This document shows, one piece after another, positions 2,745-19,696 of a DNA stretch of 23,050 nt. The position numbers and the translations under genes are program-made. The DNA comes from a virus. How positions within the stretch are numbered: the stretch's first letter is position 1; each line of letters starts with the position of its first letter. Where the stretch lies: positions 1 to 23,050 of the IMG/VR virus record IMGVR_UViG_3300010885_019193, one strand, 5' to 3'. Under the pieces are notes generated by a model that saw nothing but the letters and a program-made list of their open reading frames with translations, was not told where the DNA came from and did no database searches.

Positions 2745-3241
2745 GACGTAGTTGCTCCAAATTCCGCTTCATATATTGTACCATTTAAAGATATTTCAAC
2801 CTCAAGTAGTTCATCTTTGTTTATATTAATACTTTCAATAATTAAGTCTCCAGTTGTTTCATCAAAATATATGTTTGAACCATTGAGACCATTGCCTTCT
2901 TCTGGTACTTTTTCTTCAAACTTTATAGCAAAATTAGCAAAATACTTGTCAGAGGTTGCCTGCAATCCAAGAATATTATTTGGGTTATATCTTTGTTGAA
3001 TAAGACCAAGGTTTTTAATTGGGGTATAAGATATTTGTTGTCCATTAATAATGTCATTTCTAGTAATATTTATTAATTCATGCCCTCCAATATCTTCAAA
3101 AATTAAATCAGCCATTATTTCAACAGACATAGAATCATTATTAAATAAAACTGTATCTATTGGTGCTGTTTTTACTGGATTTACAGGTGCTTGATTTGAA
3201 GCAGATGCGTTAGATGGTGTATCTGGAGTTGCTGATACCAT
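2741..3241 (-). CDS. Tail tip-associated protein of unknown function
   Basis: This gene encodes 166 residues. The first 28 are low-complexity, rich in Ser, Ala, Asn and Pro (DTPSNASASNQAPVNPVK), suggesting a flexible arm. The rest is predicted beta with acidic surfaces (MSVEIMADLIFEDIGGHELI, GDLIIESININKDELLEVEI, GTIYEAEFG). I do not recognise a family. It lies between the hub-like gene and a fibre-like gene, so it is probably a virion baseplate or fibre-linking component. The SD GAGG is supplied by the last codons of the previous gene (GAG GTA TAA), and the ATG is at 3241. The end overlaps the next gene by four bases (ATGA), implying coupled translation. Confidence 0.6.
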   Translation of the reverse strand: MVSATPDTPSNASASNQAPVNPVKTAPIDTVLFNNDSMSVEIMADLIFEDIGGHELINITRNDIINGQQISYTPIKNLGLIQQRYNPNNILGLQATSDKYFANFAIKFEEKVPEEGNGLNGSNIYFDETTGDLIIESININKDELLEVEISLNGTIYEAEFGATTS

Positions 3242-3243
3242 TG

Positions 3244-6200
3244 TTATACCTCACTTAAATAAACTGTCATGCTTGGTCCAGAAATAGACCTAGCGTATTC
3301 TATATTATAAATAACAAACCTTGAAAGATCGGATGTAATTAAATCAAGTCCTGTTGAATCTTTATAATCTACTGTTACAATATCTCCAAGTTGAAGAGTT
3401 GGTATGCTAAATAAATTAATACCAATAGATTTTTTAGGAATCATAACTTTATTTATAATCCAGTTCATCATTGCTTCTGCATCATCTTGTGTTTGTATGT
3501 ATGTACTGTCAATACTAAATTCATTTTTACCATATGTTAATCTACTTAGTTTAATTTCATCATATCTTGATTTTTCAACTAAAGGAGAATATGTAAGAAC
3601 GCTGCCTACTAACTCTGGGTCTGATAAATTACCACGTTTTTTAAAGAACTCATCTACTGTTAATTCATGAGTTGTGTTTTGTGTAAAAGTAATTCCCTGG
3701 ATTCTTAAAAAATTTCCAGTTGTTTCATCTAAGTTTAATGCTTTGTCTGTTGAATTAAAGATTAAAAATTCAGCACCGTAAGAATTTGCATAAAAACCTG
3801 ATGTTGTATATCCTTTTATATTATTAAATGTTGGTGAAAGTTGTGCATAAAGTGCTGGATAGGCACGATCATATTTAATGTCAAAATAAGCACATTCACG
3901 CATGATTGAGCCAAATTCTTCAAAATACATATTATAGTTTGGTGGCTGTTGAGAACTTATGCCAGACAAATAAGTTGATTGAACAACTCCACTCATAGCA
4001 TATTTCCTAAACGATTCACTCACATCAATTTTAGAATTACCAAATGCATTAAATAAAGTTTCTCCTATAGTAAAAGATGTATCTTTACTATAATTTTTTG
4101 ATAAAGCATAGATGTTTTCAAACATGCACTTAGATGACCCACGAACAAATAAAGCCATGTTGTTGTATACGGGAAGCGGATCTGGATCATCTACAATCTT
4201 AATAAGTTGATTGTTTATATATAAATAAAATCTTCTTGTTTTTCCAATATCTTCATATTCTACTGATAAATCATAAACAGTTGAATTTTCTTCACCAGCC
4301 ATTCTTTGTTGTCCAGAAAACTTACCATCATCTACAAGTATTTTTGATAAACCACCCCAGAGTTTAACTGGTATTGCATCTGTGTTGCTAGAGTCTTTTT
4401 TAACTTTATAGAAAATAACATTATTAATTGAAAACTCTGCTTCATTATTGTCATTTAACTTTAAATAAGAAGTAATATTATCTTCGCTTAGTGCAACTAT
4501 TTCAAAATAATATCCGTTATTTGTTACTGGGTTTAACAAAATTGCAAGACCTCCAGAGCCTCCGCTAATATTTATGTTTTCGTCTGGCTTACTTCCACTA
4601 ACCTGATAATAAGGAACGCTACCATTTGCGGTTTGACTTCTTGCAATAGTGTTTTCAATTTTTCCTATAATCCTCATTCTTGTGCCAAAATGCCTGTATG
4701 CGTTGTTTAAACTTTTATAAACATATGAAACAAAGTTAAGTGGTGTTTCAGGAGTTTTAAATCCTGGTCCATTAAAGACTAATGCAGAAGATTGAATTGT
4801 TCCAGTTTGAGTTGATGGTAAACTGTTAATTTCAGTATCTGTTAAGTTGCTTGTTGTCATAAAGTTTTTAATTATACTATTTCTTGTTGACTGCTTAGCA
4901 ATTACATTACTCACTCCAGCAGCCCCTACTGTTGTTGCTGGCAAGGTTAAGGTTACATCTTCATCTAACTGGGTTGTAAAAAGGTCTTGAGTTTTCATGT
5001 CAATGCCACGTACATTATCGTTATTTGTCCAATAAGTATTAATTCCAGCATAGTGAGCAGTTATTGTTGTTCCAAATTGACCTCGTCCATGATTCATAAC
5101 TGCTCCATTTTGGAGTCTAGTTATACCATTAACTGTTTCATAGTATGGAGTTGAGTATATTCTTACCAGTCCCGTTGGATATATTTTTCCATTAAATGGG
5201 AGAGATGCAAAATATTTTTGATATTCTTGGTTGCTGCTAATCCACACATTGCTTGAGCCTTGAACATGAGTTGTTTTCCATGCACCAATTATTTTATCCG
5301 CTTGGGTTTGAACAATTGCTCTAGACTTTACCTGTGTATTTAGGTCTGCTATAACTGTTGCTGGTGCAAGTTTTCCTGGCTCAACAAAATATTGCTTTTT
5401 ATAATTTGGAGTACCGTCAGAGTTTTTGTCATACCATAATGCAATAGTAAGACTAAACTCTGCTGCATCGTATCTAATAATTTCACCATTAGAATACAAG
5501 TATCCATTATATCTTGTTAACCAATAAATGTTTTCTCCAAGATCCATTATGTTATTTATTAAAACATTCTTTGAAACTGTTGGTGGTTCAGCAACAATAT
5601 TTGAGTTTAAGGGCATAGCACCAAGCACATAACTTCCTTGTTTTGATGCTAGTTCATTTATTGTTTTTGTTGAATCTGTTCCTGCAACTTCCCATAAAAG
5701 TGATGGTTTATATATCCATGTTTTTTCTTTATCAATCATACTTGATTGTTTTATTGATCCATAAGATCTTTGAATATATCTTGTTGTGTAGTTAATCTTT
5801 CCATCATTATAAACTTTTTTATCTTGTGATGCAATAGATAAAATATTTGGAAGATTTCCAGATGTTGAATTTTCTATGACTCCAGAATCTGTTTGATTAT
5901 TTGATCCCGAAACAACAAAGTCTGTTGCTCTTTGTGTTAAAGTAGGCATTAGATAGTCTTTGCTCATTACTACAAAGTTATTATACTCATCAAAAAACAT
6001 TGCAGTTTGTGTTGATACTGCTAGTTGATTTAAAACTTCTGCAACATTTTGATCTGGTGCAATAAAGAAATATGGAATTATTGGATCATTTTCTCCATCA
6101 ACTCTTTTAAATGTATAGTTACTAAATCCAATATAGTCAAGTAAAAGAGAAATCGCATAACTTAAAGATGTTTGAGTTGTTAAAAGTCTTGGGGCAGGCA

Positions 6201-7752
6201 TTGACTCTAGGAAAAAATAAAAATCTCTTAACTCTAAAGAAATGGTTCCTGCAGTAACATCTGCCTGTGGGAATCCTTCTGAGTATAATGTTTTAATAGG
6301 AACTGAATATTCATCTCCATCAACATTAAAAATTGATTCATAAAAAAGAAATTTAATATTTTTTCTAATATAATCAGAAACAATACTTAAAGTGTTGTTT
6401 TCATTAAAAGCCTGATCATCATCGAATAAAGATAGTGATCCAGTTGATGCAAGCAGTTGTCCTACTGGCAAAGAAGTTGTACCAATATCCGATAAAATCT
6501 TTTTTATATTAAAATTAATAACCTTGTTTGAAATATCTACAACAAGTCTAGGTGACATTTCAATTAAATCAAAAGTAGAATCAAACTTATTCATTGTTTC
6601 TACAACAATTCTAATACCACGAACATAAGAAAACTCTCTGTATGTAGTTAAATTATTTGCATCATTTGTAAAAAAGTCTGGACTTGTAAGATCTGTAACA
6701 AGACTTGTTGAACTATTCAATATTCCAGATCCAAGTATCCAACCATATTCTGGAGTAAATGTATCATATTCGCTATTTGCTGTATTCCAAATATAAAATA
6801 AGCCTCGCTCATTTTCATTTTCAATAACAAGGTAAGCATAGCCATCAAGTGATTCATCTGGAAGGAGTGTACTAGATGTTATTTTTTCTGCAAACTCAAA
6901 CTTTGCTTTGTACTCTTCTGGAATTTGTAAGCCATACTCTAATTCAACATATCCATCCTCTGGAATAATGGCTGTGCCATCATCTCTAATAGAGTTTTCA
7001 TTAAATGAATAAGCATCAGTCCAATTATTTTCATTTAAATATTGTATCTTCCATCTAACGGGAGTTGTTTTATTTGTTGTCCCGTAAAGTGGATCTGCCA
7101 ATGTTCCAGACTGAGTTGTAAAATTTCCAAGATCTACAGTTCCAACATTTGTTTGCATTTTTACAATAAGTCTATTTGCTGGAACAGTTTTTTTATAAAC
7201 CACAAAAGGGGCTGTATCATCAATATAATTAAGAGAGTTTGATATATTTTTTGCAACTCCTCTTTCAATATTATCTTCAGTTCTAAAAGATGACCAATAT
7301 TTAAACTCGTCATATCGTGATGGCATATAATATCTTGGTCTAAGAGTCATTGATGCACCAGAGTTTGATATATATTTTCTATTAAAATATGATGCTTTGT
7401 TAATTCCAGATCTTGGTCTAAATGGTTTTACGCAATCCTCTAAAGAATAAAGCATCTTAACTTTTTCTTTAATTGAGGTAAAAAGTTGTGGTACTTCTAA
7501 ATTTGTATATCCACCATCAATAACAACATCTGCATCTGTTGCACCAGTATAATAATTCCCAGCATCTAAATTATCAAAAGTCAAAGGAAGTGTGCGAAAC
7601 TGAACATTTGATCCTAGTGGTCTATATCTATAGTTACCTAGTTTATAAATGTTATCTGGCATATTCATATTCCATTCAGCCAAGACTAATGACTGAAGGC
7701 TTATGGTTGACGATGTTTCTAGGTGTGTCTTTAATACATCACTTACAAACAT
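3244..7752 (-). CDS. Large tail tip / hub protein with lectin-like insert
   Basis: This gene encodes 1502 residues. The second gene after the tape measure is usually the tip hub (Tal-like). Hub-like traits: a segment near residues 568-597 (VAEVLNQLAVSTQTAMFFDE followed by YNNFVVMSKDYL), and the C-terminal end (DDAEAMMNWIINKVMIPKKS and later LQLGDIVTVDY, near 1420-1470) that recalls the final domain of gp27/hub proteins. Between them, about residues 1030-1215 resemble a concanavalin-like/LamG beta sandwich (GGLAILLNPVTNNGYYFEIV, YDLSVEYED, RRFYLYINNQLIKIV, MALFVRGSSKCMFENIY). The element GAVMNHGRGQFGT lies near 885. No peptidase or muramidase motif was seen. It is probably the host-contact hub with glycan binding. 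The start is fixed by the SD (GAAGAGGT) inside the previous gene's end. Confidence 0.7.
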   Translation of the reverse strand: MFVSDVLKTHLETSSTISLQSLVLAEWNMNMPDNIYKLGNYRYRPLGSNVQFRTLPLTFDNLDAGNYYTGATDADVVIDGGYTNLEVPQLFTSIKEKVKMLYSLEDCVKPFRPRSGINKASYFNRKYISNSGASMTLRPRYYMPSRYDEFKYWSSFRTEDNIERGVAKNISNSLNYIDDTAPFVVYKKTVPANRLIVKMQTNVGTVDLGNFTTQSGTLADPLYGTTNKTTPVRWKIQYLNENNWTDAYSFNENSIRDDGTAIIPEDGYVELEYGLQIPEEYKAKFEFAEKITSSTLLPDESLDGYAYLVIENENERGLFYIWNTANSEYDTFTPEYGWILGSGILNSSTSLVTDLTSPDFFTNDANNLTTYREFSYVRGIRIVVETMNKFDSTFDLIEMSPRLVVDISNKVINFNIKKILSDIGTTSLPVGQLLASTGSLSLFDDDQAFNENNTLSIVSDYIRKNIKFLFYESIFNVDGDEYSVPIKTLYSEGFPQADVTAGTISLELRDFYFFLESMPAPRLLTTQTSLSYAISLLLDYIGFSNYTFKRVDGENDPIIPYFFIAPDQNVAEVLNQLAVSTQTAMFFDEYNNFVVMSKDYLMPTLTQRATDFVVSGSNNQTDSGVIENSTSGNLPNILSIASQDKKVYNDGKINYTTRYIQRSYGSIKQSSMIDKEKTWIYKPSLLWEVAGTDSTKTINELASKQGSYVLGAMPLNSNIVAEPPTVSKNVLINNIMDLGENIYWLTRYNGYLYSNGEIIRYDAAEFSLTIALWYDKNSDGTPNYKKQYFVEPGKLAPATVIADLNTQVKSRAIVQTQADKIIGAWKTTHVQGSSNVWISSNQEYQKYFASLPFNGKIYPTGLVRIYSTPYYETVNGITRLQNGAVMNHGRGQFGTTITAHYAGINTYWTNNDNVRGIDMKTQDLFTTQLDEDVTLTLPATTVGAAGVSNVIAKQSTRNSIIKNFMTTSNLTDTEINSLPSTQTGTIQSSALVFNGPGFKTPETPLNFVSYVYKSLNNAYRHFGTRMRIIGKIENTIARSQTANGSVPYYQVSGSKPDENINISGGSGGLAILLNPVTNNGYYFEIVALSEDNITSYLKLNDNNEAEFSINNVIFYKVKKDSSNTDAIPVKLWGGLSKILVDDGKFSGQQRMAGEENSTVYDLSVEYEDIGKTRRFYLYINNQLIKIVDDPDPLPVYNNMALFVRGSSKCMFENIYALSKNYSKDTSFTIGETLFNAFGNSKIDVSESFRKYAMSGVVQSTYLSGISSQQPPNYNMYFEEFGSIMRECAYFDIKYDRAYPALYAQLSPTFNNIKGYTTSGFYANSYGAEFLIFNSTDKALNLDETTGNFLRIQGITFTQNTTHELTVDEFFKKRGNLSDPELVGSVLTYSPLVEKSRYDEIKLSRLTYGKNEFSIDSTYIQTQDDAEAMMNWIINKVMIPKKSIGINLFSIPTLQLGDIVTVDYKDSTGLDLITSDLSRFVIYNIEYARSISGPSMTVYLSEV

Positions 7753-8388
7753 TTATACCTCTTCCAGTGTTACCGAAATATTCCAAAGATCGTGGTTTGC
7801 TCCACCACGTTTTACAACAGAATAATTAAAATCTGCAATATAAACCTGCATGATTTGATTGTATTGTGCAAGATGTCCATAGTCTGCATCAGCCTTGCCA
7901 AAATTTGAATACTTGTCGTATGCCATAAACATCCAAAAAGGGCCTGTATGGTTTTCATACCAGTCAAGTATTTCTACTCCGCCTGCTCCACCATCTACTG
8001 TAAACTCTCCAGTTGTATTTTTTTCAGGGGACAAACCAGTAGATAAAAACCCTGCATCTTGATAGTATCCTCTTGATGGCAAGTTATTCCATGAAACAGA
8101 CATTGTTAGTTTATCTGCTATGTGATATGAACGCATACGTCCATTAATGGTTCTTTGTCTTTGTTCTATTCTTGTGGGTGTAAAACTTAGTTCCCCCCGA
8201 TTATGGTCTGACAGAATCAAAAATTGATTAATTAAATCTGTATCTGTTGATGCATCAAAGTTGCCTTGTACTTCATAGCCAGTGGGCAGATATACCCCAT
8301 TAGAGAGCGTACCAGGGTTCTCAGACCACAACAAAGCCTGGGGGCGTTCATACCTACGTCTACCTGTTAAATACGCTGCTGTGGCCAT
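7753..8388 (-). CDS. Distal tail protein-like, first gene after the tape measure
   Basis: This gene encodes 211 residues. The gene right after a tape measure gene normally codes the distal tail (Dit-like) ring that joins tube and tip, and the size suits a single tube-like domain. It is beta-rich, with aromatic strands late in the chain (GPFWMFMAYDKYSNF, IMQVYIADFNYSVVKRGG, DLWNISVTLEEV). The N-terminus is basic (GRRRYERPQALLWSENPGTL). It starts at the ATG in TAATG shared with the tape measure stop. Its last codons, GAA GAG GTA TAA, double as SD for the next gene, whose ATG follows the stop with no gap. The role is inferred from order and fold pattern; no family signature is certain. Confidence 0.6.
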   Translation of the reverse strand: MATAAYLTGRRRYERPQALLWSENPGTLSNGVYLPTGYEVQGNFDASTDTDLINQFLILSDHNRGELSFTPTRIEQRQRTINGRMRSYHIADKLTMSVSWNNLPSRGYYQDAGFLSTGLSPEKNTTGEFTVDGGAGGVEILDWYENHTGPFWMFMAYDKYSNFGKADADYGHLAQYNQIMQVYIADFNYSVVKRGGANHDLWNISVTLEEV

Positions 8389-11300
8389 TATGGTCTTTGT
8401 GTCCTAATTCTCTGTGAGTCAACTTGTCTAATTTGTGTCATAACGACTCTTGCAATATCTTGTGGATTTGCATCAGATTTAACGTTAACGCTTAGATTAT
8501 AATTATACACCTTCTGGCCACTGTAGGATCCATCATTTATAGACTTCATTTTATTAATACCATATGAGTCAACTGCATATTTGCTCATTATAAATTCACC
8601 AGGAGTTAACATTGCTGGAACTGTATCTGTTCCCTTTGCATACCCTCCTACAGCAAAATATTTAGGCATAACCATTCCACCCATATTCATTCTTTGTGGA
8701 GGTGCTGGTTCTGCTCTAGTAGTTTTTACTATTCCACCAGAAGCAAACACTGGTCGTGCTGGAGGTTTTGGCGTTGGCTTTGGCGTTGGAGTTGGTGAAG
8801 GCGTTGGAGTTGGTGAAGGCGTTGGAGTTGGTGAAGGCGTTGGAGTTGGTGAAGGCGTTGGTGAAGGCGTTGGGTTGCCTCGGTCTGGATTATTTGCACC
8901 TTCATCTGGATTATGGACTGCTCCATTACCTGTATCGCCAGGAGGTGGTGTTGGTGTGGGAGTTGGTGTTGGTGTGGGAGTTGGTGTTGGTGTGGGAGTT
9001 GGTGTTGGTGTGGGAGTTGGTGTTGGTGTAGATGAAACTGTTGCTAAATATTCATCATAAGACATTTGGTCTTCTGGTGGAAGAGTTGCTTGTAATTTAT
9101 TCCACGCTGCTCTAGACATTGGCTTTTGTTTATTTAAGAAGTTATCAAGTGCTGCACTAGCATTATTCCATCCATCTTTTGCATTTTCTGCAGGATCGGT
9201 TAAACTCTTATTAAATGTTAGTTCCTGACCAATTAATTCAGCATAAGCAATTACTTGATCTTCTGTAAGTCCCCATTCTGTTGCAAGATCTGTAATTTCT
9301 TTAGTAGATAGGTCATCATCTAAAGTTGCAGCAACAAATGCAGCATACTTCGCTACTTCGTCATATGGCACTCCCCATTTTTTTGCAAGTGCTTCAATTT
9401 GTACAGGAGATAATTCCGTACCTAAAGTAGTAGTAACAAATGAAGCATATTTCAGAACTTCACTTTCTGTAAGATTCCATGTTGCTCCAAGTTTTGTAAT
9501 CTCTGCACTAGATAGACCTTTACTTAAAATAGCAGTAACAAATGCAGCATACTGCTCTGCCTCAGTTTTTGGTACTCCCCAGGCTTCTCCAAGTTTTGCA
9601 ATCTGTACAGGAGATAATTCCGTACCTAAAGTAGTAGTAACAAATGAAGCATATTTCAGAACTTCACTTTCTGTAAGATTCCATGTTGCTCCAAGTTTTG
9701 TAATCTCTGCACTAGATAGACCTTGACTTAAAATAGCAGTAACAAATGCAGCATACTTCGCTGCCTCAGTTTTTGGTACTCCCCATGCTATTCCAAGGTT
9801 TGTAATCTGTTGATCAGATAAAGTTCTTCTATTAAGTTCTAAATAACCCTCAAGATATTGTCTTGCTTGGCTTTGGCTTATTCCCCAGGCTGTGGCAAGT
9901 GCTACAACGTCTGCATCTGATATGGCTCCATCTTTAATTGCCTTTTGAATAAGCGCATATGAGGCTGCTCCTACTGTTGCAAAATCTATTGATAGTTTAA
10001 GAAGATCAAACTGTGTAATAATTTCTGCTCCAAAGATTGCAGCCTTTACTAATAAATCTTGAAAAGCAATAGTTGCAACTTCTGATTCTGCAATTTTTCC
10101 TGAAACCTCTGCCCATTGAACCTTTAGATCATTAAGATATTGCAAATCTCTTGCTTGATTATCTTGAATTACTTTTAGTTTTCCTTGCTCTATCACAAGA
10201 AGTGCTTGTGCAGAAGATAACTCTTTATTTGCAGTAAAAAGATTTAATTCTTTAGCATCACCAATACCATTTGTAATATTATAAATTCTATCTTCAAGAT
10301 CACGGATATCTAGTAGTATTGCTTTTCTTGCATCTTCAAGAGGTTTAATGTTATATTTTTTAATTGTAGCAATTTTTGCTTCAATTGCTTCTCTACCCTC
10401 TTCAAGGTCATAGATGTCTTGAGTTATTTGAAATTGGGCTTCTTCAATTTGTAATCTGGTTAGACCATTAGCATTTCTTAAGTTTCCAAGTTCTTGTTCT
10501 TTTGCTATGTTTAGGGAGTCTCCAGTACCAGATGCTGCCCCCTCTGATGCTGTAGATCGTATGTCTTGTGACATTTGTGCTGCTGCAGAAATATCTCCTT
10601 GTGATAGAGCATCTGCAAGAGATATTTTTTGTTTTTCTTGTGCAATTAAGTTTTGATTTAATTCAGAGATTTTACTTAATGCATCTTGTTGTACATCATA
10701 CTTTTTATTAATTGCCTCTGCTGCATGATCAATTATACTTAAATCATTTGATAGGTCAGAAGCCTTTTCTTGTGCGGCAGCAATTGGAATATCAAATGTT
10801 TCAGAAATTTGATCTTCATATTCTTTAATTTGATCTTCAAAGATTCTTAATTGTCTTGTTACATCTGTTTCAATTTTTACTTGTTTTTCATCTATTTTTG
10901 ATTGAATTTCATCAATTGTATGCTGAATATCCGAAACATTCTTTTGTGCTGCTTCAACTACTTTTTGTTTAGCCTCAATTTCTCTTTCTGCAGAAAGTAT
11001 TGATCTAGCATATTTTCCTTCTACTGCTGTTTGTGCTTTTGAGAAGAAGTTGTTCATTTCACTTTCTACCTCAGATAATTTATCTTTAAAATGTTGTAGT
11101 GGATCTTGTACTTTTCCTAAATTTTCTTGAGCCTTTTTTAACTCTCTAAATTTTGCAATTAAAGCATCTAGTTCTGGTCCTGGGGCTGCAGCACTTAATG
11201 ATAAAGCAAAGTTTGCATCTGATAACATTTCAATTGCTTCTTTAGCAGTTACTCCTGCTGAAGTTAATTCTTTAAATTTGGATTTTTGTTTTTCAATACC

Positions 11301-14300
11301 AGCAATTGTTACAACTGCAGAACTTTGGAATGCTCCAATAACTGCTTCTTTGTATCCTCTTGCTGCTGCAAACCCATCAGTGGTTAGGTTAACAAACTTT
11401 TTATTTAACCTATCTACAGAAACATATCCCTTTTTAACGGCTTCATCTAGTCCACCAACAAAATTAATGAAATCTTCATTTTGACCAAGGTTTGATAGTT
11501 CCTGGTTAAGACCTTCAAAGATTTTGATATCTTGCTTCTCTCCAAGAATTCTTCTAAGTTCAAGCAATCCACCTTCTGCATTAATGGACGCATCTCTTGT
11601 TAATTTTAATTGAAGAAGTAAGTCATTTAGGTTAGTATCTATTGGTTTTACTTCTGCGACTGTTGGTGTTTTAACAACTTTACCGCTACCATCAACAACT
11701 GGGTCTCCTGTATATGTTCTTGTTTTTTTACCAGCAATTTCTGCTATCTGTTGATCTAATGTTTTTGTCTTACCTGATTTATCTTTAGTAATATTATTAG
11801 TCTCAAGAAATTTATTTCTTTTTATTGATGCTTGACGGGAGCCTAGTTCGGATGGGCCGCTTTCTCCTATTTGTTCTTGAGCATAGTCTTGAATATATTT
11901 TCTTTTTGCATTATCATCTTCAAACTCAACTGCGTAGATACTAATATATCTAGAAATTGTTTCTTTTTTAAATTCATCTGGTAATGCAGCAAAATCTTTA
12001 TATTGTTTTGTTAGTTGTTCAAGGTTTGCAATTGATGAACTGTCTTTGTGGTCTTCTATAAACTTTGAAAGAATTTCTTTAGTTATTGGAGTTTTAATGC
12101 TATCAACTTGATCAAGAAGTGCAGAAAGTTCTAATAATTTTTTATTATTCTGTTTAGTTAATCCTGTTAGTGCAACCTCAAGATTAATTTCACTTCCATC
12201 CATTGATTGTAAAAGGGCAATTGCTTTTCCTGTTTTATCAAATTCTGCTGGTTTCATTTTAATCATGTCAATAACTAACTTAGTGGATAATTTTTTATCT
12301 GATACTCCTCCAAGTAATTGTGTTATCTCTGATATTTTTGCAATACCGTGAGTTTTTACTCCAAGTTCAAGGTTTGAATCTAATTCTCCTAATTTACCAG
12401 CAAAAAGGTCCATCATTGCAGTTGTCTGTTCAGGATTTAATTGTCCGCTTGCCATCATTAAGTTCATTTTTACTTCAAAGTTTTGAGCCTTTGCTGAAGT
12501 TTCAAATCCTGCTTTTGAGTATTGTGATGTTGAAGTTCCAAATCCAATATCACTTAGTTTAGCCAGTTTGCTTTGAACGGTATTGGCCTGTGTAGCAAAT
12601 AAGGTATCCTTATATCTATCTTTTACTTGACCTTTTAATGAATCAAAATATGCACTTTTACTAGAATTCATATGCATTAAATTTGCTATATCAACTGCCC
12701 CTTTATTGCCACCTAAGAATGAAGGGAAAGATTCTTTTGGATTATTAAGTGCTGGATTTTTTGCATTCTTAAACTGTTTCATTGCAAGATTAAGAGATTG
12801 TGCAGTTCTAGCATTTGTCTTTTCTGTATCAATTCCTTGCTGCACAGTTAAACCAGCAATTTTTTCTTGTATCTCTAACTGTTTTTCTTTATTAGACGTT
12901 ATTAAAATTTCTTTTGATAAAGACTCAATTTGCTTTTGTGTTATTTGGTATATAGCATCTGCTTGGGCTTGAGCAAGAGCAAGGTTTTGTACACCATATG
13001 AAGCCAGTTGTGCTGCTGCAGCATTATCCTTAATGCCACCTGAAACAATATTTTTACCTGCTTGCTCTGCAGTATCAATTAAGTTCATTCTAACCTTAAT
13101 TGGGTTTTTAAGAATATCGCTTCCATCTGGTCCGACTAACATTCTTAACTGTCCCTCAACATTTGCGGTAAATGTCTTATCCCCTAGATTAGTTCCAATT
13201 TGATCACCAATACTATTTGCTTGCTCTGCAGTAAGGATTCCATCTGAAATATATGCTGCTAATTGCAAAGATAATTCTTTTGCTGCTGCTGCTGCACCAT
13301 TTTTTTCTATGCTTGTAAATACGCCAGCATTGACTGTTTTTCCAACTTCACTCTTTAGGAAGGTATCTCCAAATCCGCTTCCTTGTCTGTTATAGTCATT
13401 ATAAGATTGAAGAGATCCCGCTTCTTTTTTCTTTGCAGTTAATTGAGATGCACCAACTGTATCAGTTAATACACTTATCTCTTCCATTTTCTTTGTTGTT
13501 GCAGAAATAGATGCAACATACTGTCCTTGCCTTATAGCAGCATCTTTTTGCATTTTTTGATAAATTAACATTCCTGCACCAACTGCAACAACTGAAGCAG
13601 CAAGAATTGAAAATGTACTAGTTAGCATTGGTAAAATTCCAAGTAAGGCTGAGGCTGCAAATAGACCAGTTGTTACCTTTTCATTTCCACCAGTCATAGC
13701 ACTTGCCATTCCTAGTCCACCCAATGCACCAGAGCCCATTGCTGCTTTCCCACCCATACCCTGTTTTGGTGTTTTTTCTGCTAAAGGAGCATCTGCTTTT
13801 CCTGGAATTCTGTATGTAACTTTTGGTGTTTGAACAACTTTCTTTCCTTTTGGAATAGTAGTAATTATTGTATCTTTTGGACTTCCGCTTGAAGATTTAA
13901 CATTTACAGGTTTCTTTTTTCCTTTTATTGGTGTTACCTTTTTAGTTTTTTTATCTTGTAAAGATTCATCCTTTGTTACCAAAACAGCAGAATGCATTTT
14001 ATGGAATTCTCTCCAGTCAACCTTTCTTGCTTCTTCAAGTCTATTTATCATTGCTTGATACATTGATTTTTCTTCTGCATTTAAAGTCCAACTTGAAACA
14101 AGGTTTTTAAGTTTTGGAAGTGTTTTATCAATTTCAGAAATCATAGATGAGTTATAAGCATCAGGCGTCATATTTTTTGGAATATCCATTGTTGATTCAG
14201 CAAAGAATCTTTTTGCTCCACCATTAACACCAAGTAAATTAATTCTTGCTTGTTCTGCCATAGACTTCATATTTGTTGAGAATTCTCTCTTCCCAGATGC

Positions 14301-17300
14301 TTTATCAAACACTCCTGCAGTTCCTACATCTGCAAGAACATTTCCTGAAAGGTTTCCAGCATGAAGATCTTTATCACCACGAAGGTTTGCTGCTACTAGT
14401 TGTTTGAAGTATTCATCTTTTGTAAATTTACCAGTAAAATTAGATTCTGCAAATTTTGGATTAAACTGTGATTCTAACGCAAATAATTTTTTACCAGTTC
14501 TTGGATCTTGAATAACCTTTATGCTTTGAACTGGAGACTCTAATCCATGAACTTCTCTAGCAATTTGTGTTGCACGAATTTCTGCAAGAGCAGCCTTTTC
14601 ATCCATCATGGCTTTTACAAAAACTTTTGATCCATTTTCTTTTTCATAAACACCGCTTATGTGATTAGCATCAATAAAACTAAATCCAGATGATCTAGAT
14701 ACTTGTTTTACATATTTTGTTATAGAATCATTTTTAAATCTACTGGAGTTAACATCTTTCTCTGTTTCTAAAAACACCTTTTGTCTTTGAGTTTCTTTTT
14801 CTAAAGCAATTCTTTCTGCTTCTTTAAGAGCATTTTTATTTATTTTTATTTGTCTTCCACCACCACGATTAACTCTTCCAGTCTTAAATCTATCGCCAAT
14901 TAAGACACCAACATTTTTAGTGCCAGAGAATGTTCCAGTTTTACTACTAATTTCAGGTCTTTCATATGCGGTAATATTACCTGAAGAATCTCTTTGTACA
15001 GGAATCTTATAGTTTGAATCAAGTTTCATTACTGACTCTAATGCTTTAATTACTGACTGGCTTGTTTTTGTTTTTTTAACTTTATCAATAACCTCTGAAA
15101 TAGGAGCATCAGGTGGGCTAAATTTTATGTTTGAAGAACCTCTTGGGCTAATTGCAGCAGGAGCATATAGTTTTTTTACTCCTTCTGTTAATTTTCCTCC
15201 AGCACCTTCTTTAATAAGATTACCAAGAATTCCATTTTTTTCATCTCCCATTCTTGAATAAACATCTTGGTCTCCAATAAAAGTTGATGGATTTACGTCT
15301 AAAAATGATTTTATTAAACTTGTTCTTATTTTTTCACTAGTTTTATTTGCATCTTCTGGAGAAAAACCATCACCTATAAGTCTTGCGTTCATTGTATTTA
15401 TTGCAGAGGCTTTTTCTATTTCTTGTAAATATTCACCAAGAGTTATTTTAGAATTAATTAATTTTGCATTTGTTTCTGGACTAACATCAAAACCAACTGC
15501 TGTATATGCATTTGCTTCAGCAAATCCAAGTTTTTTTATATTTTCTGGAAGGTTAGAACCTGTTAATGTTTGAAAATTTACTGCGTGAGCAAATACTGTT
15601 TTATTTGGTTTAACTTCACTTGTTCCTTCTGCAAATCCCTGCATTTTTCCATCAATTAAACCTTGTATTAATGCTCTTGCATATGGTTGCTGCATAACAT
15701 CTTTTGTAACAACTGCTTCGCCAGGCTCTAGCATTGCTGGAATAGTATCACCATTTCCAGAACCTGGGACCATCGATATACCACCTGCAAGTTTTCTAAC
15801 TTTATTTCTTGATGCTGTTAACTTTCCTGCATTGGCTGTTTTTCCTGCAACTACTTTAGCACCACTAACCATCATACCTGGATTTGCCATAGCAAATTTT
15901 GCTGCTGCAACTGTTGCTTCAACATATGCGTTTCGCAAAAGTTTAACTGCAACTGTTTCTAATTCAAACTTTTGAGTTAACTGTGTATGAGCCTGATTAA
16001 GTGATGCTGCAACAGTGGCTGCCTCTAACTGTTCTGCATTTAAATAGTTTGTTTGTTCAGCAAGAATTTTTGAATTTCCGCTAAGTTTTAAGAATCCACC
16101 ACGCATTGCAAGAAATAGTTTAATTATGTTTGCAGCACCATTAGCAAGTAAACCAAATGTCATAAGAAGAACTGGACCAATTACTCCAACAAGCGTTGTT
16201 GCAATTACTATAAACTTTTTAGTTCCATCACTTAAATTATTAAATTTTTCAAGAAAGTTTCCAATTACTTTAACTATTGGAGTAATCGCCTCTAAAAATG
16301 TTTTTCCAATTGGGGCAATTGAAAGTTTTAGTTGTTCAATTGATGCTTTAAAATTTGTTCCAACAGCATCTTCTATTGTTTTTAATTCTCGTTCTGATAA
16401 AATTGCAAGTTCTTCTATTGATTTTCCTGTTAAACCTAAAACCACACTTGCTTGTGTTCCATCTTTTGCTACGTTTTGAAATAAAGTTGATAGTCTTGAG
16501 AATTGAAACTTACCAAATAACTGTTCAATTGCTCTTGCTCTTTGTAATGGGGCCAGTGTATCTAATGCTTGTGCAAACTGGATAACAGTATTTTTAATAT
16601 CTCCTTGATTACCTTCAACAATACCTTTGATATTAATGCCAAGACCACTAAGCATTGCACTTGCTTTTGCTGATGGGTTAATTAATGATGCAAGTCCAGA
16701 CTTTAATGCGTTGGCACCTTCTGATGCATTGATTCCACCTTCTTTCATGGCGGTAAGGAAAAATGCAAGATCTTCTACATCTCCACCAAGTTGTTTAATA
16801 ACTGGTCCTGCTTTAGGAATAGCAATAGTTAAGTCTTCAATAGAAAGAGTTGTTTGGTTTTCAACAGCATTTAAAAAATTAATCTTAGTTGATAGTTCAT
16901 CTGCTGCTATACCAAATGCATTTGTAAGAGATATTGTTGTTTCAAGTGCAGCAGATTGCTCAACCCCGCCAAGTACTGCAAGTCTAGTTGCTTCTGAAAC
17001 CTGTGCAGTTAAGTCTGATCCAGTCTTACCCATTGCTGCTGCTGAAGCAGCCATTTCCATAGTTTTTGATACTGCAACACCATACTTTGTAAAGCCATCT
17101 GCAAGTTGTTGAACATCAGCAAGTGCCTTATTTGTTTGTGCACTTGTTGTAAACATATCTCCATAAACACGTTTAAACTTTACTGCTTGTGCTTCCAAGT
17201 CCATAAATGTTTTTGCAGCCATCGAACCAAAATACAGAAGAGGAACAGTAAAACCAACCATAAGTTGGCGACCTGCCCACTGTGTATTTTTACCAAAATT

Positions 17301-17840
17301 TAAAAGACTTGTTGATCCTTGTCTTACAACTTGATTAAAAATTGCCTGTTTTTGTGCAGCAAGTGCAGTTTTTGTTGCATAATCATTCATGTTTAAGGTT
17401 TTTGGCGTAACAGCCATAGCCTTCATTGCACCGTTTGCATCACGACCCATTTTAATATATTGGGTTTGCATTTTCTTGACACGTTCTTCTGCTACCTTGC
17501 CAATTGTGTCAAATTCAGATCTAAATAGTTTTCCAAAAGTTTTTGAAGCACCGCCTGCATAACGGAAATACTCACGCATAGAAAGTTTATTAGTCTCTAA
17601 TGCGTGAGTAAATGACTCCGTCGATGATCTAACACTACCCATTGTTGCAGTAAATTTGTTAGTGGCATTAATGGAATTTAAAAGATTATTTTGTAATCCT
17701 TTTTGTGCTAATGCTGCTGATTGGCTATTTTTTGCTACTGATGCATGAAATAATGCAATCTGACGTTGTAAAACCTTGAGTTCGGCTAATGCTGATGAGG
17801 CATTTATATTTATGCCTATATTAGCATTAACGTCACTCAT
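8388..17840 (-). CDS. Tape measure protein, 3150 residues, with kinase-like insert and repeats
   Basis: This protein sets tail length and is expected to be ejected with DNA. SD: AGAGGTGT. Order by residue: 1-180 helical; about 205-580 TP901-type core ([34 protein letters not shown]) ending in a hydrophobic stretch at 540-578; about 680-735 the motif [16 protein letters not shown]; about 740-1300 an insert including a kinase-like segment (K1076, E1087, GDKDLHAGN at 1155-1163); a basic linker; a second hydrophobic stretch at 1389-1429; long helical part; coiled coil at about 2260-2560; seven 34-residue repeats at 2638-2875, each with one Trp (2652 to 2856); a Thr-Pro/Ser-Pro rod at about 2934-3023; and a C-terminus with [18 protein letters not shown]. 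At 0.15 nm per residue the upper limit for the tail is about 470 nm; inserted globular domains would shorten it. The stop overlaps the next start (TAATG). The identity is very secure. Confidence 0.97.
8782..8873 (-). repeat. 18-bp minisatellite B encoding Ser-Pro/Thr-Pro repeats
   Basis: On the plus strand the unit GGCGTTGGAGTTGGTGAA occurs four times (8782, 8800, 8818, 8836), followed by a 12-nt short copy and a degenerate end. It encodes Pro-Ser-Pro-Thr-Pro-Thr type repeats. A 70-nt non-repetitive spacer (Gly-Asn-Asp rich) separates it from the first array. Confidence 0.95.
8947..9030 (-). repeat. 18-bp minisatellite A encoding Thr-Pro repeats
   Basis: On the plus strand the unit GGTGTTGGTGTGGGAGTT occurs four times without error (8947, 8965, 8983, 9001), followed by a 12-nt partial copy. 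On the coding strand it gives (Thr-Pro)3 per unit. The 18-bp period keeps frame, so copy number can vary without breaking the tape measure gene. Confidence 0.95.
9214..9929 (-). repeat. Seven 34-residue (102-bp) tandem repeats in the tape measure gene
   Basis: The repeats have the consensus LS--EI--LG--WG--E-E--KYA-FV---L, with a Trp exactly every 34 residues (residues 2652, 2686, 2720, 2754, 2788, 2822, 2856). Each looks like two short helices. Units 3 and 5 are identical in protein sequence. At DNA level the block 9400-9582 recurs at 9604-9786 with only a few mismatches, a 204-bp (two-unit) step, so part of the array is a recent duplication. Confidence 0.9.
14160..14720 (-). other. Kinase-fold-like domain inside the tape measure protein
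   Basis: This covers residues about 1040-1225 of the tape measure protein. A strand with an invariant-type lysine (GSKVFVK, K1076) is followed 11 residues later by a helix with glutamate ([16 protein letters not shown]1087). A hinge-like strand follows ([10 protein letters not shown]). Then comes the segment [12 protein letters not shown], in which D1158 and N1163 have the D-x4-N spacing of the kinase catalytic loop, and a strand ending in a candidate metal-binding Asp (D1171 in VLADVG, or D1179 in GVFDK). The pattern recalls HipA, phosphoinositide-kinase and aminoglycoside-kinase type folds. The N-to-D gap (8 or 16) is off the usual value of about 13, so activity is uncertain. The limits given are approximate. 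Confidence 0.5.
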
Positions 17841-17859: not shown

Positions 17860-18192
17860 TTAATTATTTGCAAGTACTGTGTTTAGCAGTGCATTAGCAT
17901 CGCTAAGTTTTACTCCAGATGCCGCTTCAATAATGCTGTAGACTGTTGGTAGATCTAAAACATCTTCCAACTTTGCTATATCCCCAGCCAATTCTGGCTT
18001 GTATTGCTCCATTGCAATTTGTACACATTCAACGAGCAAAACCATAGACTTTTCGTTATCTTCTGCTACTAAGGCTACCTGCTCAAATTTCTTCATAAAT
18101 GGACGAAGCAAGGAAATCTTTAAAGGACGTACCTTTATCTTTGTTCCATCCATAAGTGTCAGTTCTGCCCCATCATAAACTGTTGTTGCCAT
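17860..18192 (-). CDS. Tail assembly chaperone, short form (G-only paralog)
   Basis: This gene encodes 110 residues, starting MATTVYDGAELTLMDGTKIK. Over its whole length it is a paralog of the N-terminal 98 residues of the gene just upstream: shared PLKI, LR-FM--FE-V, LVECV-I-M-QY-PE, D-PT-Y-I---AG-K. It lacks the T-like extension and ends in ASGVKLSDANALLNTVLANN. Unlike its partner it has a perfect SD (AGGAGG, eight bases upstream) and its own extended -10 box, so it may be made in excess. That matches the surplus of short G protein over GT in well-studied siphophages such as lambda. The tape measure gene starts 19 nt downstream. It probably acts as a chaperone for the tape measure protein during tail assembly and is absent from the virion. 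The paralogy is clear; the function is inferred from family and place. Confidence 0.75.
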   Translation of the reverse strand: MATTVYDGAELTLMDGTKIKVRPLKISLLRPFMKKFEQVALVAEDNEKSMVLLVECVQIAMEQYKPELAGDIAKLEDVLDLPTVYSIIEAASGVKLSDANALLNTVLANN

Positions 18193-18261: not shown

Positions 18262-18972
18262 TTATTTCATTACGCTTGGATCTCTTTCATCGCCATAATC
18301 CAACCCCATATTTATACCAAACCCCGCCTTTTGTGCATTAACTCCTTGTAGAGCCAAAACGTCATTGCTATCTGTTGCTTTGCCACCGCTAAAGACTCTT
18401 GCTTTCATGTCTTCCCATTCTTTCTGTCCTTTATTTTGATTTTTATCCCCGTCTAAATCCACACCTTGAATTGCTGCAAGAAACTTTTTTTCTGAATAAT
18501 CTAACTCTCTAAGTACTTCAAGAGTTACCATCAGTTCTGGCATTGATAGATATGTTTCTAGTTCTTGATAATCTTTCCAGATACCCAGCAAAAAAACCTC
18601 TGCTTCAAGTTTTGCTAAATCTAGTGTCTCCCAGGTTTCTCCACTTTTTTCTGCTTGATCTTTTACTGGCTCTTCAGATTTTTGATTAATTTTAATTCCA
18701 GCAGATGAATCTAATATTTTATAAATTGTTGGCATGTCAAAATTATCTTCTATATCTTTAGCGGTAGATGATATTTCTGGACAGTACTGTTTCATACATA
18801 TACGAACACACTCTACTAAGACAGCGATAGATTCATCATCACTTTTTGCTTCTTTTACATTTTCAAATACCTCCATAAATTCACGAAGATATCTTATCTT
18901 TAATGGTATGATTTCTAATTCTTTACCATTAAATAAAAATATTGTTTGATTTTTGTATACCCTGGTTGCCAT
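18262..18972 (-). CDS. Tail assembly chaperone, long form (G domain fused in frame to a T-like domain)
   Basis: This gene encodes 236 residues from the ATG at 18972. Longer versions with TTG or GTG starts back to 19011 would read through the terminator. The ATG is preferred because the short paralog downstream starts with the same MAT-VY motif. Residues 1-98 match that paralog: PLKI, LR-FM-FE, LVECV-I-M-QY-PE and ED-D-PT-Y-I--AG-K. A charged linker follows. Then comes a helical T-like part (ETWETLDLAKLEAEVFLLGI, LRELDYSEKKFLAAIQGVDL) with a Gly-rich end (GFGINMGLDYGDERD) typical of the GT chaperones coded before tape measure genes. In most siphophages the T part is reached by a -1 frameshift; here it is in the same frame. 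An A6 tract at 18645-18650 sits at the junction but is not in the phase of a canonical slippery heptamer. It likely coats the tape measure protein and recruits tube subunits. Confidence 0.75.
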   Translation of the reverse strand: MATRVYKNQTIFLFNGKELEIIPLKIRYLREFMEVFENVKEAKSDDESIAVLVECVRICMKQYCPEISSTAKDIEDNFDMPTIYKILDSSAGIKINQKSEEPVKDQAEKSGETWETLDLAKLEAEVFLLGIWKDYQELETYLSMPELMVTLEVLRELDYSEKKFLAAIQGVDLDGDKNQNKGQKEWEDMKARVFSGGKATDSNDVLALQGVNAQKAGFGINMGLDYGDERDPSVMK

Positions 18973-18980
18973 TATAATCA

Positions 18981-18989
18981 ATTCTACCA
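18981..18989 (-). promoter_or_regulatory. Extended -10 element TGGTAGAAT placed for a leaderless transcript
   Basis: TGGTAGAAT on the minus strand lies immediately after the terminator U run. Only eight bases (TGATTATA) separate it from the ATG at 18972. A start 7-9 nt downstream of the -10 would put the 5' end at or within two bases of the A of the ATG. No SD lies in a usable position before that ATG. Confidence 0.5.
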
Positions 18990-18990
18990 C

Positions 18991-19024
18991 AAACAAAAAA
19001 CCCACCTCCAATTAAGGAAGTGGG
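18991..19024 (-). terminator. Intrinsic terminator after the tail tube gene
   Basis: The minus strand reads CCCACTTCC, loop TTAATT, GGAGGTGGG, then TTTTTTG. The stem is nine pairs with one G-U wobble, GC-rich, followed directly by six U. This is the clearest terminator in the window. It separates the tail tube gene from the chaperone genes, whose first promoter-like box lies only a few bases further on. Confidence 0.85.
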
Positions 19025-19060: not shown

Positions 19061-19696
19061 TTATGATGTAACTGTGTGGGTACGGTCAATGATCTTGCCG
19101 TATGATCCAGATGTATCTTCTGGTAGAAGACGGAATGATACTTCAAACATTGAAGCCTCATCACGCTTTGCTGAAACTGTTACGTTTTCAATTGATAGAG
19201 CACGGTATCCAACGTATATGCGCTCTACTGCAGCAGAATCATCACAGTCGCCTGTTCCTGGTCCTATTGCAACAATACCACGCTCAACTGGACATTCTCC
19301 GATGTCTCCAGCATTAAATGATAAAGTTCTTCCAGCAGATGAAGCCTTTGTTCCACTTAGATCATTGTTGTTTCCTGCTAGGGCCAATAGAAGGTTTTCT
19401 AAAGTAGCCTCAGCAAATGCAGTTGCAATGCTAACTTGCATTCCCTGCTTATAAAGTTTTGCAACGTCAAGAATCTGGTCTACCTGGACTTCACCGAAGT
19501 CTGGTTGGAACTGCATTTCAAGTCCGTTTGTTGTGTAACCAACATTGTCATATCCTGCATCAGCAGAGAGAGTGTCTCTGTATGATTCTGATCCTGAAAA
19601 TGCTGGGGACATTGTTGGTACTAAAGTTGTGTCTGCCATATAAAATGCTGCAGCACCAACGATAATGTTTGTTGATGTTCCACGGGTATAAGCCAT
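19061..19696 (-). CDS. Major tail (tube) protein
   Basis: This gene encodes 211 residues of the subunit expected to polymerise into the tail tube. Evidence: it sits between the tail terminator and the tail chaperone genes upstream of the tape measure; its size is right; and it is built of Gly/Ser/Thr-rich strands with the typical small N-terminus MAYTRGTSTNIIVGAAAFYM. Further strands include NGLEMQFQPDFGEVQVDQI, ERGIVAIGPG, IYVGYRALSIENVTVSAKRD and ASMFEVSFRLLPED. A strong SD (AAAGAGGTGA) lies five bases before the ATG. Codon use is visibly more GC-ending than in the surrounding genes (GAC, TCC, CGT, GGC), which fits very high expression. Its own extended -10 lies upstream, and a classical intrinsic terminator preceded by a second hairpin follows the stop, so it may be made largely as a monocistronic message. 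Confidence 0.8.
   Translation of the reverse strand: MAYTRGTSTNIIVGAAAFYMADTTLVPTMSPAFSGSESYRDTLSADAGYDNVGYTTNGLEMQFQPDFGEVQVDQILDVAKLYKQGMQVSIATAFAEATLENLLLALAGNNNDLSGTKASSAGRTLSFNAGDIGECPVERGIVAIGPGTGDCDDSAAVERIYVGYRALSIENVTVSAKRDEASMFEVSFRLLPEDTSGSYGKIIDRTHTVTS

Follow-up and report, generated by a model that had tools for sequence, protein, structure and literature searches.

What would a kinase do inside the tape measure protein (TMP) of a phage? The question is raised by IMG/VR record IMGVR_UViG_3300010885_019193, positions 1-23,050 of which form the window analysed here (the whole stretch of 23,050 nucleotides), with tail genes encoded on the minus strand and a TMP of 3150 amino acids (aa) encoded by the largest open reading frame (ORF). 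A prediction made from the sequence alone had proposed a kinase-like domain within this protein. Here, we combine residue conservation, structure prediction and profile comparison, which indicate that the domain adopts a protein-kinase-like (PKL) fold with an intact catalytic set and is a distant relative of HipA-like kinases found in head-type phage proteins. We consider it probable that the TMP carries a HipA-like atypical kinase as exchangeable cargo, a tail-borne effector brought into the host, of which catalysis, delivery and target are what we infer. The protein itself is identified as a TMP by profile matches to Pfam PhageMin_Tail (E 1.1e-23) and to the PHROG tape measure family (E 2.6e-98) and by its setting among tail genes, with a minor tail PHROG at 3244-7752 (E 3.5e-56) and Ig-domain and major tail PHROGs at 19061-19696 (E 1.6e-33 and 7e-4). 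The features on which the argument turns are as follows, with residues numbered in the TMP and fractions of 86 referring to distinct domain sequences.

8388-17840, minus strand: tape measure protein gene, 3150 aa, largest ORF; PhageMin_Tail and PHROG TMP matches
13974-14801, minus strand: kinase-like domain, residues 1014-1289, as delimited by the AlphaFold2 model, fold matches and conservation
14613-14615, minus strand: K1076, position of the ATP-binding lysine in strand beta3 (86/86; model strand 59-65)
14580-14582, minus strand: E1087, position of the alphaC glutamate (86/86; model helix 68-83)
14352-14369, minus strand: catalytic loop D1158-x4-N1163 (both residues 86/86; GDKDLHAGN in the window)
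14322-14330, minus strand: D1171-V-G1173, DFG-like metal-binding motif (D and G 86/86)

Successive scans of IMG/VR for relatives of the domain returned 8, then 90 and then at least 208 stretches, 80 being kept from each of the last two, and conservation was counted across 160 loci, which yield 86 distinct sequences of the domain. Although identity to the window goes down to 45%, 36 of the 276 columns are invariant, among them K1076, E1087, R1154, D1156, D1158, N1163, D1171, G1173, G1183 and R1185. The ordered lysine, glutamate, catalytic aspartate, asparagine and metal-binding aspartate of the PKL superfamily are thus all kept, each in 86/86. Given this share of invariant columns, the chance that the four residues named beforehand (K1076, E1087, D1158 and N1163) would all fall in such columns is P = 2.5e-4 for random positions. 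The VFVK strand with K1076, E1087, the GDKDLHAGN loop and D1171 stand where the original prediction had put them, and the homolog alignment that it had called for finds all of its catalytic residues unvaried. Of the two candidates offered for the downstream aspartate, D1171 holds up and D1179 (19/86) does not; H1160 of the window is not conserved either. The domain also lies where it had been placed (14160-14720, residues 1041-1227), but its extent had been drawn too narrowly, the folded domain covering about residues 1014-1289.

All 80 loci of the first set carry it within one long ORF (1068-4062 aa, some cut at contig ends), and among 60 distinct TMPs the kinase domain is matched in all, with a median identity of 53%, and the stretch behind it in 40 at 30% identity. 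The N-terminal block of the window (residues 1-740) recurs in 56/60 other kinase-bearing TMPs at a median identity of 60%. Outside these metagenomic records, INPHARED yielded no relative apart from two chance matches at E 4 (near records possibly lying outside the search), and no domain relative was confirmed in any of 58 candidate stretches from species genomes. Seven records chosen as lacking the domain gave no detection, in a scan that had no positive control of its own.

For structure prediction, AlphaFold2 was run on residues 1014-1289 with an alignment (A2) of 60 of the 61 reference sequences, L002 being omitted as identical to the window. The model (predicted local distance difference test, pLDDT, 91.9; predicted template modelling score, pTM, 0.91) has the bilobal layout of the PKL superfamily, with a five-stranded N-lobe plus alphaC and a helical C-lobe. 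In the model, the K1076 strand precedes the first N-lobe helix with E1087, followed by two strands, a helix and the D-x4-N loop; then come a tight hairpin and the D-V-G motif, and the rest of the fold is helical, with C-lobe helices at 213-237 and 242-258. When Foldseek candidates were re-compared with VIA-align, the CotH structure 5jd9 was the best match (Z 12.1, root mean square deviation (rmsd) 4.2, 218 residues aligned), followed by CtkA (Z 10.6), MavQ (9.8), VPS34 (9.4), LepB (9.3) and Golgi casein kinase (9.1), with HipA at Z 7.5 to 9.0. Altogether, 43 of 1000 chains reach Z>=8. By their titles, the rows shown are kinases, HipA-type proteins or kinase inhibitor complexes, except for LepB, which we take to be kinase-like as well. 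The kinase fold and active-site order proposed originally are thereby supported, and neither of the two outcomes named beforehand as speaking against them, a structure without a bilobal kinase fold or homologs without conserved K1076, D1158 and N1163, occurred (predicted structure bilobal; 86/86 for each residue). A motif arising by chance or misread was considered and rejected, because the conservation (86/86) and the predicted structure exclude it.

To which kinase family does the domain belong? Judged by direct sequence test, it falls outside both HipA_C and CotH. Pfam HipA_C (PF07804) and Pfam CotH (PF08757) each match 0/60 members at E<=1, and neither finds a match in a 100-kb relative of the window (E<=1 for HipA_C). 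An hhalign comparison of A2 with a HipA alignment (A6) of four sequences, namely E. coli K-12 HipA and three of 14 listed plasmid matches, with the Salmonella, Enterobacter, Citrobacter and other E. coli matches omitted, was not significant (probability 0.2%). Its best segment, equally non-significant, sets the catalytic loop opposite HipA ATDGHAKN (24 columns, 38% identity); of the HipA-type loop D-x-H-x-K-N, the D and N are present and the His is not conserved. A HipB-type antitoxin beside the TMP was not found, as both flanking ORFs match tail-region PHROGs (phrog_1194 and phrog_10504) and no significant Pfam family.

The connection to HipA instead passes through another group of phage proteins. 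At E<=0.001 the model matched five viral models: one portal protein, two ADP-ribosyltransferases (ARTs), the uncharacterised GodonK gp67 and one unnamed protein. The gene for GodonK gp67 directly follows the portal gene and its product contains a similar motif run; it has no significant Pfam match, and none to MuF or ART. Its kinase-like part has similar counterparts in at least 257 IMG/VR stretches, and an alignment of 38 rows (A7) was made from GodonK and 37 of the best 80 of these 257 loci, L249 being dropped for a stop codon within the range. With hhalign, A7 and A2 align over 63 N-lobe columns with a score of 46.0 (E 6.3e-6, probability 85), against maxima of 22.0 and 25.9 in 100 column shuffles per side (200 in total) and 14.2 for reversed alignments. 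The lysine-glutamate spacing is 11 in both families, and both have a D-x-G motif. With filters off, the A7 profile matches inside the domain in 144/160 loci (best E 3.3e-4). A7 in turn is a HipA/CtkA-type kinase family: Pfam HipA_C matches 9 of its 38 members (best 8.7e-4), hhalign against HipA gives E 1.9e-4 (probability 48), and the closest structure to its AlphaFold2 model (pLDDT 92.7, pTM 0.90) is CtkA at Z 14.0, with HipA at up to Z 10.8. By these profile comparisons the TMP domain is a distant relative of head-type HipA-like phage kinases, and its HipA link holds only via A7 as an intermediate. The comparison with HipA made in the original prediction was thus apt for the fold and by way of this sister family, but not as a direct sequence relationship.

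Among seven sister ORFs scanned, a MuF or minor capsid 2 domain was present in four and an ART in five; the window TMP has no Pfam match to MuF or ART, which sets it apart from an A7-type head protein with an ART fusion. Enzymes fused to MuF are described in PMC9503650 as packaged within the head and then injected. The A7-like family includes the IMG/VR loci L211-L290, GodonK gp67, Dolphis gp117 (annotated as ADP-ribosyltransferase) and DSL-LC01 WJZ48510.1; several members combine MuF or minor capsid 2 with a C-terminal ADP-ribosyltransferase, and Pfam matches their kinase weakly.

Is the domain an integral part of the TMP or an addition to it? The remaining features of the gene bear on this point.

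15621-17840, minus strand: conserved N-terminal TMP block (N-block), residues 1-740, preceding the cargo region
16512-17090, minus strand: PhageMin_Tail domain, residues 251-443 (Pfam match)
16131-16220, minus strand: hydrophobic segment 1, residues 541-570; a segment upstream of the kinase recurs in relatives
15579-15815, minus strand: PAMLxPGE module, residues about 676-754; also present behind the kinase in certain other TMPs
14814-15620, minus strand: variable pre-kinase module, residues 741-1009, common to the kinase-less TMPs L187 and L185
13557-13676, minus strand: hydrophobic segments 2 and 3, residues 1389-1428, downstream of the kinase domain
8556-8642, minus strand: C-terminal copy of the PAML motif, residues about 3067-3095 (sequence motif)

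Comparison of related TMPs points to the kinase domain being optional cargo, gained or lost as a module. The N-block, at 55-57% identity over residues 575-740, is common to the TMPs L185, L186, L187 and L188, none of which has the kinase. L198 likewise combines the N-block with absence of the kinase and belongs, with L196, L199 and L200, to the more distant TMPs that are without the domain, in part on truncated ORFs. L187 keeps 67.5% identity with the window as far as residue 1004, a span that takes in the window's pre-kinase module; after this border about 200 residues are without clear similarity, and homology restarts at window residue 1370. L185 equals L187 over its whole length. The type of pre-kinase module varies between groups, the window type being found in no other kinase-bearing TMP, and Pfam gave no convincing match for these modules (best E 0.0016, with two families each matched in a single member). 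L188, which has a SHIVEE motif, shares another pre-kinase module type with L182 and L179. A PAMLxPGE motif before the kinase together with at least two after it is found in 15/46 ORFs complete at both ends; the module aligns across 56-79 residues in L023, L050, L063 and L066. In the window TMP, single copies lie ahead of the kinase and at the C-terminus.

The region behind the kinase holds other enzymes in other TMPs. Two collections, A3 (40 sequences) and A4 (28 sequences), were hand-picked from 62 and 32 representatives; they bring together unrelated sequences and were used for scanning only. Among the 40 post-kinase stretches (from the 62 representatives), a HAD acid phosphatase was matched in 12 (best 3e-18), a polynucleotide kinase PHROG in 12 and a phosphoheptose isomerase PHROG in six; the Pfam scan of the window TMP gave no HAD match. 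HAD acid phosphatase or PNKP-like phosphatase domains lie inside TMPs such as L066 and L074. At residues about 1777-1953 and about 2121-2306, L066 also has two related domains that show H-R, GPG-x-Y and GY-x-GY motifs, and by motifs seen by eye, domains in the TMPs L066, L079 and L059 look ADP-ribosyltransferase-type.

Some relatives have a further kinase-like segment. In the L055 TMP, residues about 1379-1540, some 370 residues behind the window-type domain, contain YYVK, a HipA-like NDDGHTNN and NLDLG and are detected by the A7 profile (E 2.8e-5). Since this A7 match concerns the second segment and not the window-type domain, it lowers the support from blind searches and adds to the evidence for cargo. 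In L144, L158 and L160, a segment at ORF residues about 3000-3200, with HYMK, GHGDMHPGN and FDWG near residues 3130-3180, resembles ABC1 (E 2.5e-6 to 4.1e-6) and APH (E 1.4e-5 to 2.0e-5) in the part around the catalytic loop, both below the curated cut-off. HipA_C has no match in the records of these four loci. Judged from motifs and short profile matches, the TMP thus has kinase-like segments of two different kinds in 4/160 loci. It is conceivable, and we suggest it only tentatively, that in this large group of uncultured phages the TMP is a delivery chassis, whose cargo would be swapped between N-block and C-terminus, carried unfolded into the host ahead of the genome and refolded there. The cargo would then comprise several kinds of kinase, HAD phosphatase and other enzymes, exchanged as in polymorphic toxins and in some cases bracketed by PAMLxPGE repeats.

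How might a kinase in the tail reach a substrate? Siphophage TMPs extend through the tail according to PMC13033339 and PMC9022992, where it is proposed that they leave ahead of the DNA and contribute to a channel across the envelope to the inner membrane; the TMP of phage Douge is a trimer with its C-terminus in the baseplate, and a width of 4 nm is given for the tail tube. We propose that the kinase domain would travel in the tail lumen, probably unfolded, leave the virion with the TMP ahead of the DNA and fold in the host cytosol, where ATP is available. There it might phosphorylate a small number of host proteins, perhaps a single one, or some other substrate, by which a host defence could be disarmed or the host slowed at the first moment of infection. 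The two hydrophobic segments announced for the flanks of the domain are present at residues 541-570 and 1389-1428, and such segments recur in relatives: upstream of the kinase in 62/62 first-set ORFs whose 5' end is intact, and at least once behind it in 43/46 complete at both ends, with none inside the kinase domain in 73 ORFs. Flanked by hydrophobic segments, the domain might be kept to one side of the membrane; the need of a kinase for ATP would point to the cytosol.

The virus itself appears actinophage-like. A near-identical phage is represented by a 100,390-base IMG/VR contig (19,002 of 19,011 compared bases equal; guanine-plus-cytosine (GC) content 34%), whose terminase shares 53-54% identity with those of the best-matching Streptomyces phages. 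The N-terminus of the TMP is about 30% identical to TMPs of Streptomyces phages, including Tomas and Circinus (Stanwilliamsviridae). The terminase nearest to Streptomyces phages together with 34% GC suggests a low-GC actinobacterial host. Towards its C-terminus the TMP has tandem repeats of about 35-40 residues (window 9231-9890 and 8781-9029, residues about 2651-2870 and 2938-3020); Thr-Pro and Ser-Pro repeats come next, ahead of the C-terminal PAML motif. Next to the TMP gene, ORFs 17860-18192 and 18262-19011 are alike in their N-terminal halves and likely represent a duplication; in Streptomyces relatives, their place is occupied by tail assembly chaperone genes.

Several observations weigh against a HipA-like kinase delivered to the cytosol. 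The TMP domain has no significant direct sequence match to a known kinase family in Pfam, PDB sequences, PHROGs or the HipA alignment. Plain Foldseek against PDB was weak, with mostly kinases among its matches (best E 1.2e-3, TM-score about 0.3) and none at E<=0.001, the clear fold matches coming from the VIA-align re-comparison and the viral models. A blind search of whole records with A7 finds the window-type domain in one of the nine records that hold it, and this detection is in a near-identical relative of the window (E 7e-4), the other eight giving none. A host scan with a secreted-protein gene of the near-identical contig found no relative. A 31-kDa globule is, by rule of thumb, about 4 nm wide, and three folded domains of 276 aa would hardly fit a tube of about 4 nm; a folded globule as wide as the tube, in three copies, suggests transport in an unfolded or extended state. 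Finally, CotH, a family of spore-coat or secreted proteins, is the best fold match, so action outside the cytosol is possible.

This last point leads to an extracytoplasmic kinase of CotH/Fam20C type acting on envelope proteins or glycans during penetration, which would agree with the structural match (Z 12.1, rmsd 4.2, 218 aligned) and with known TMP enzyme inserts acting on the wall; we regard it as very improbable, as Pfam CotH matches 0/60 members at E<=1, ATP is scarce outside the cell and the sequence link passes through the HipA-like sister family. That the fold uses ATP in another way, for AMPylation, polyglutamylation or the phosphorylation of small molecules or sugars, seems rather improbable: kinase-like folds with such activities exist (SelO, SidJ, APH), and chemistry on small molecules or nucleic acids would agree with the HAD and phosphoheptose-isomerase-like neighbours present in other TMPs, whereas the closest solved structure to the sister family is that of the kinase CtkA (Z 14.0). 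The kinase fold may also be catalytically dead or a sensor of ATP, serving a structural purpose or setting the timing when tails are assembled or the TMP is released. It is located in a structural protein, some relatives without it keep the TMP, and pseudokinases are common; they usually lose some catalytic positions, however, and the five positions here are invariant (86/86) even as identity to the window drops to 45%, so we hold this to be unlikely. We give a similarly low chance to a kinase that acts late, from new TMP in the producing cell, with tail proteins, chaperones, lysis or host factors as its targets, and that travels in the virion only as a passenger. The TMP is made where ATP is present and the domain can fold, and the tube-size problem would be avoided; yet for such a role a separate gene would suffice, and members of the sister family are fused to packaged head-type proteins (4/7 ORFs scanned). 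Overall, an exchangeable kinase delivered by the TMP seems to us the probable reading.

In the literature, subscription papers and preprints being outside the scope, no description of a TMP kinase was found among the matches listed. PMC8876498 and PMC7824862 carry both 'tape measure protein' and 'kinase domain', and in PMC8876498 the kinase is a separate ORF. What is new to us is the TMP as a kinase carrier. Virion-delivered enzymes are known mainly from the phage head, as MuF and portal fusions and T4 Alt. If our reading is true, an enzyme can be part of the very protein that exits the virion first; the TMP kinase, with its invariant catalytic set, is present in at least 208 environmental stretches. 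Three questions would be opened to testing: how a narrow tube accommodates a TMP that includes a globular domain, whether such domains refold once inside the host, and which substrates a phage phosphorylates ahead of the expression of its own genes.

Enzyme domains inside TMPs are known in the form of cell-wall hydrolases. The window TMP is like these in holding an enzyme domain within the protein; they act on peptidoglycan, whereas a kinase requires ATP and a phosphate acceptor. The kinases of polyvalent proteins, as treated in PMC5512222 (Iyer et al. 2017), are likewise embedded in multi-domain proteins of mobile elements and proposed to modify host proteins. By that description they lack a C-terminal subdomain, have an insert between a conserved His and Asp, and occur mainly in elements of Verrucomicrobia-Chlamydia and Bacteroidetes; the TMP domain keeps its C-lobe helices and its His is not conserved. 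The word 'tape' does not occur in PMC5512222. With CotH kinases (PDB 5jd9), the predicted domain has the fold in common (Z 12.1 over 218 residues). With HipA/CtkA-type kinases it shares the bilobal fold and the K-E-D-x4-N-D order, and it differs from them in having eight residues from N1163 to the D-x-G aspartate and in sitting inside a TMP. The head-type A7 kinases have their invariant loop D and N spaced D-x5-N, in contrast to D-x4-N in the TMP domain, and are head-linked, often with a fused ART, whereas the TMP domain belongs to the tail; both reside in large phage proteins.

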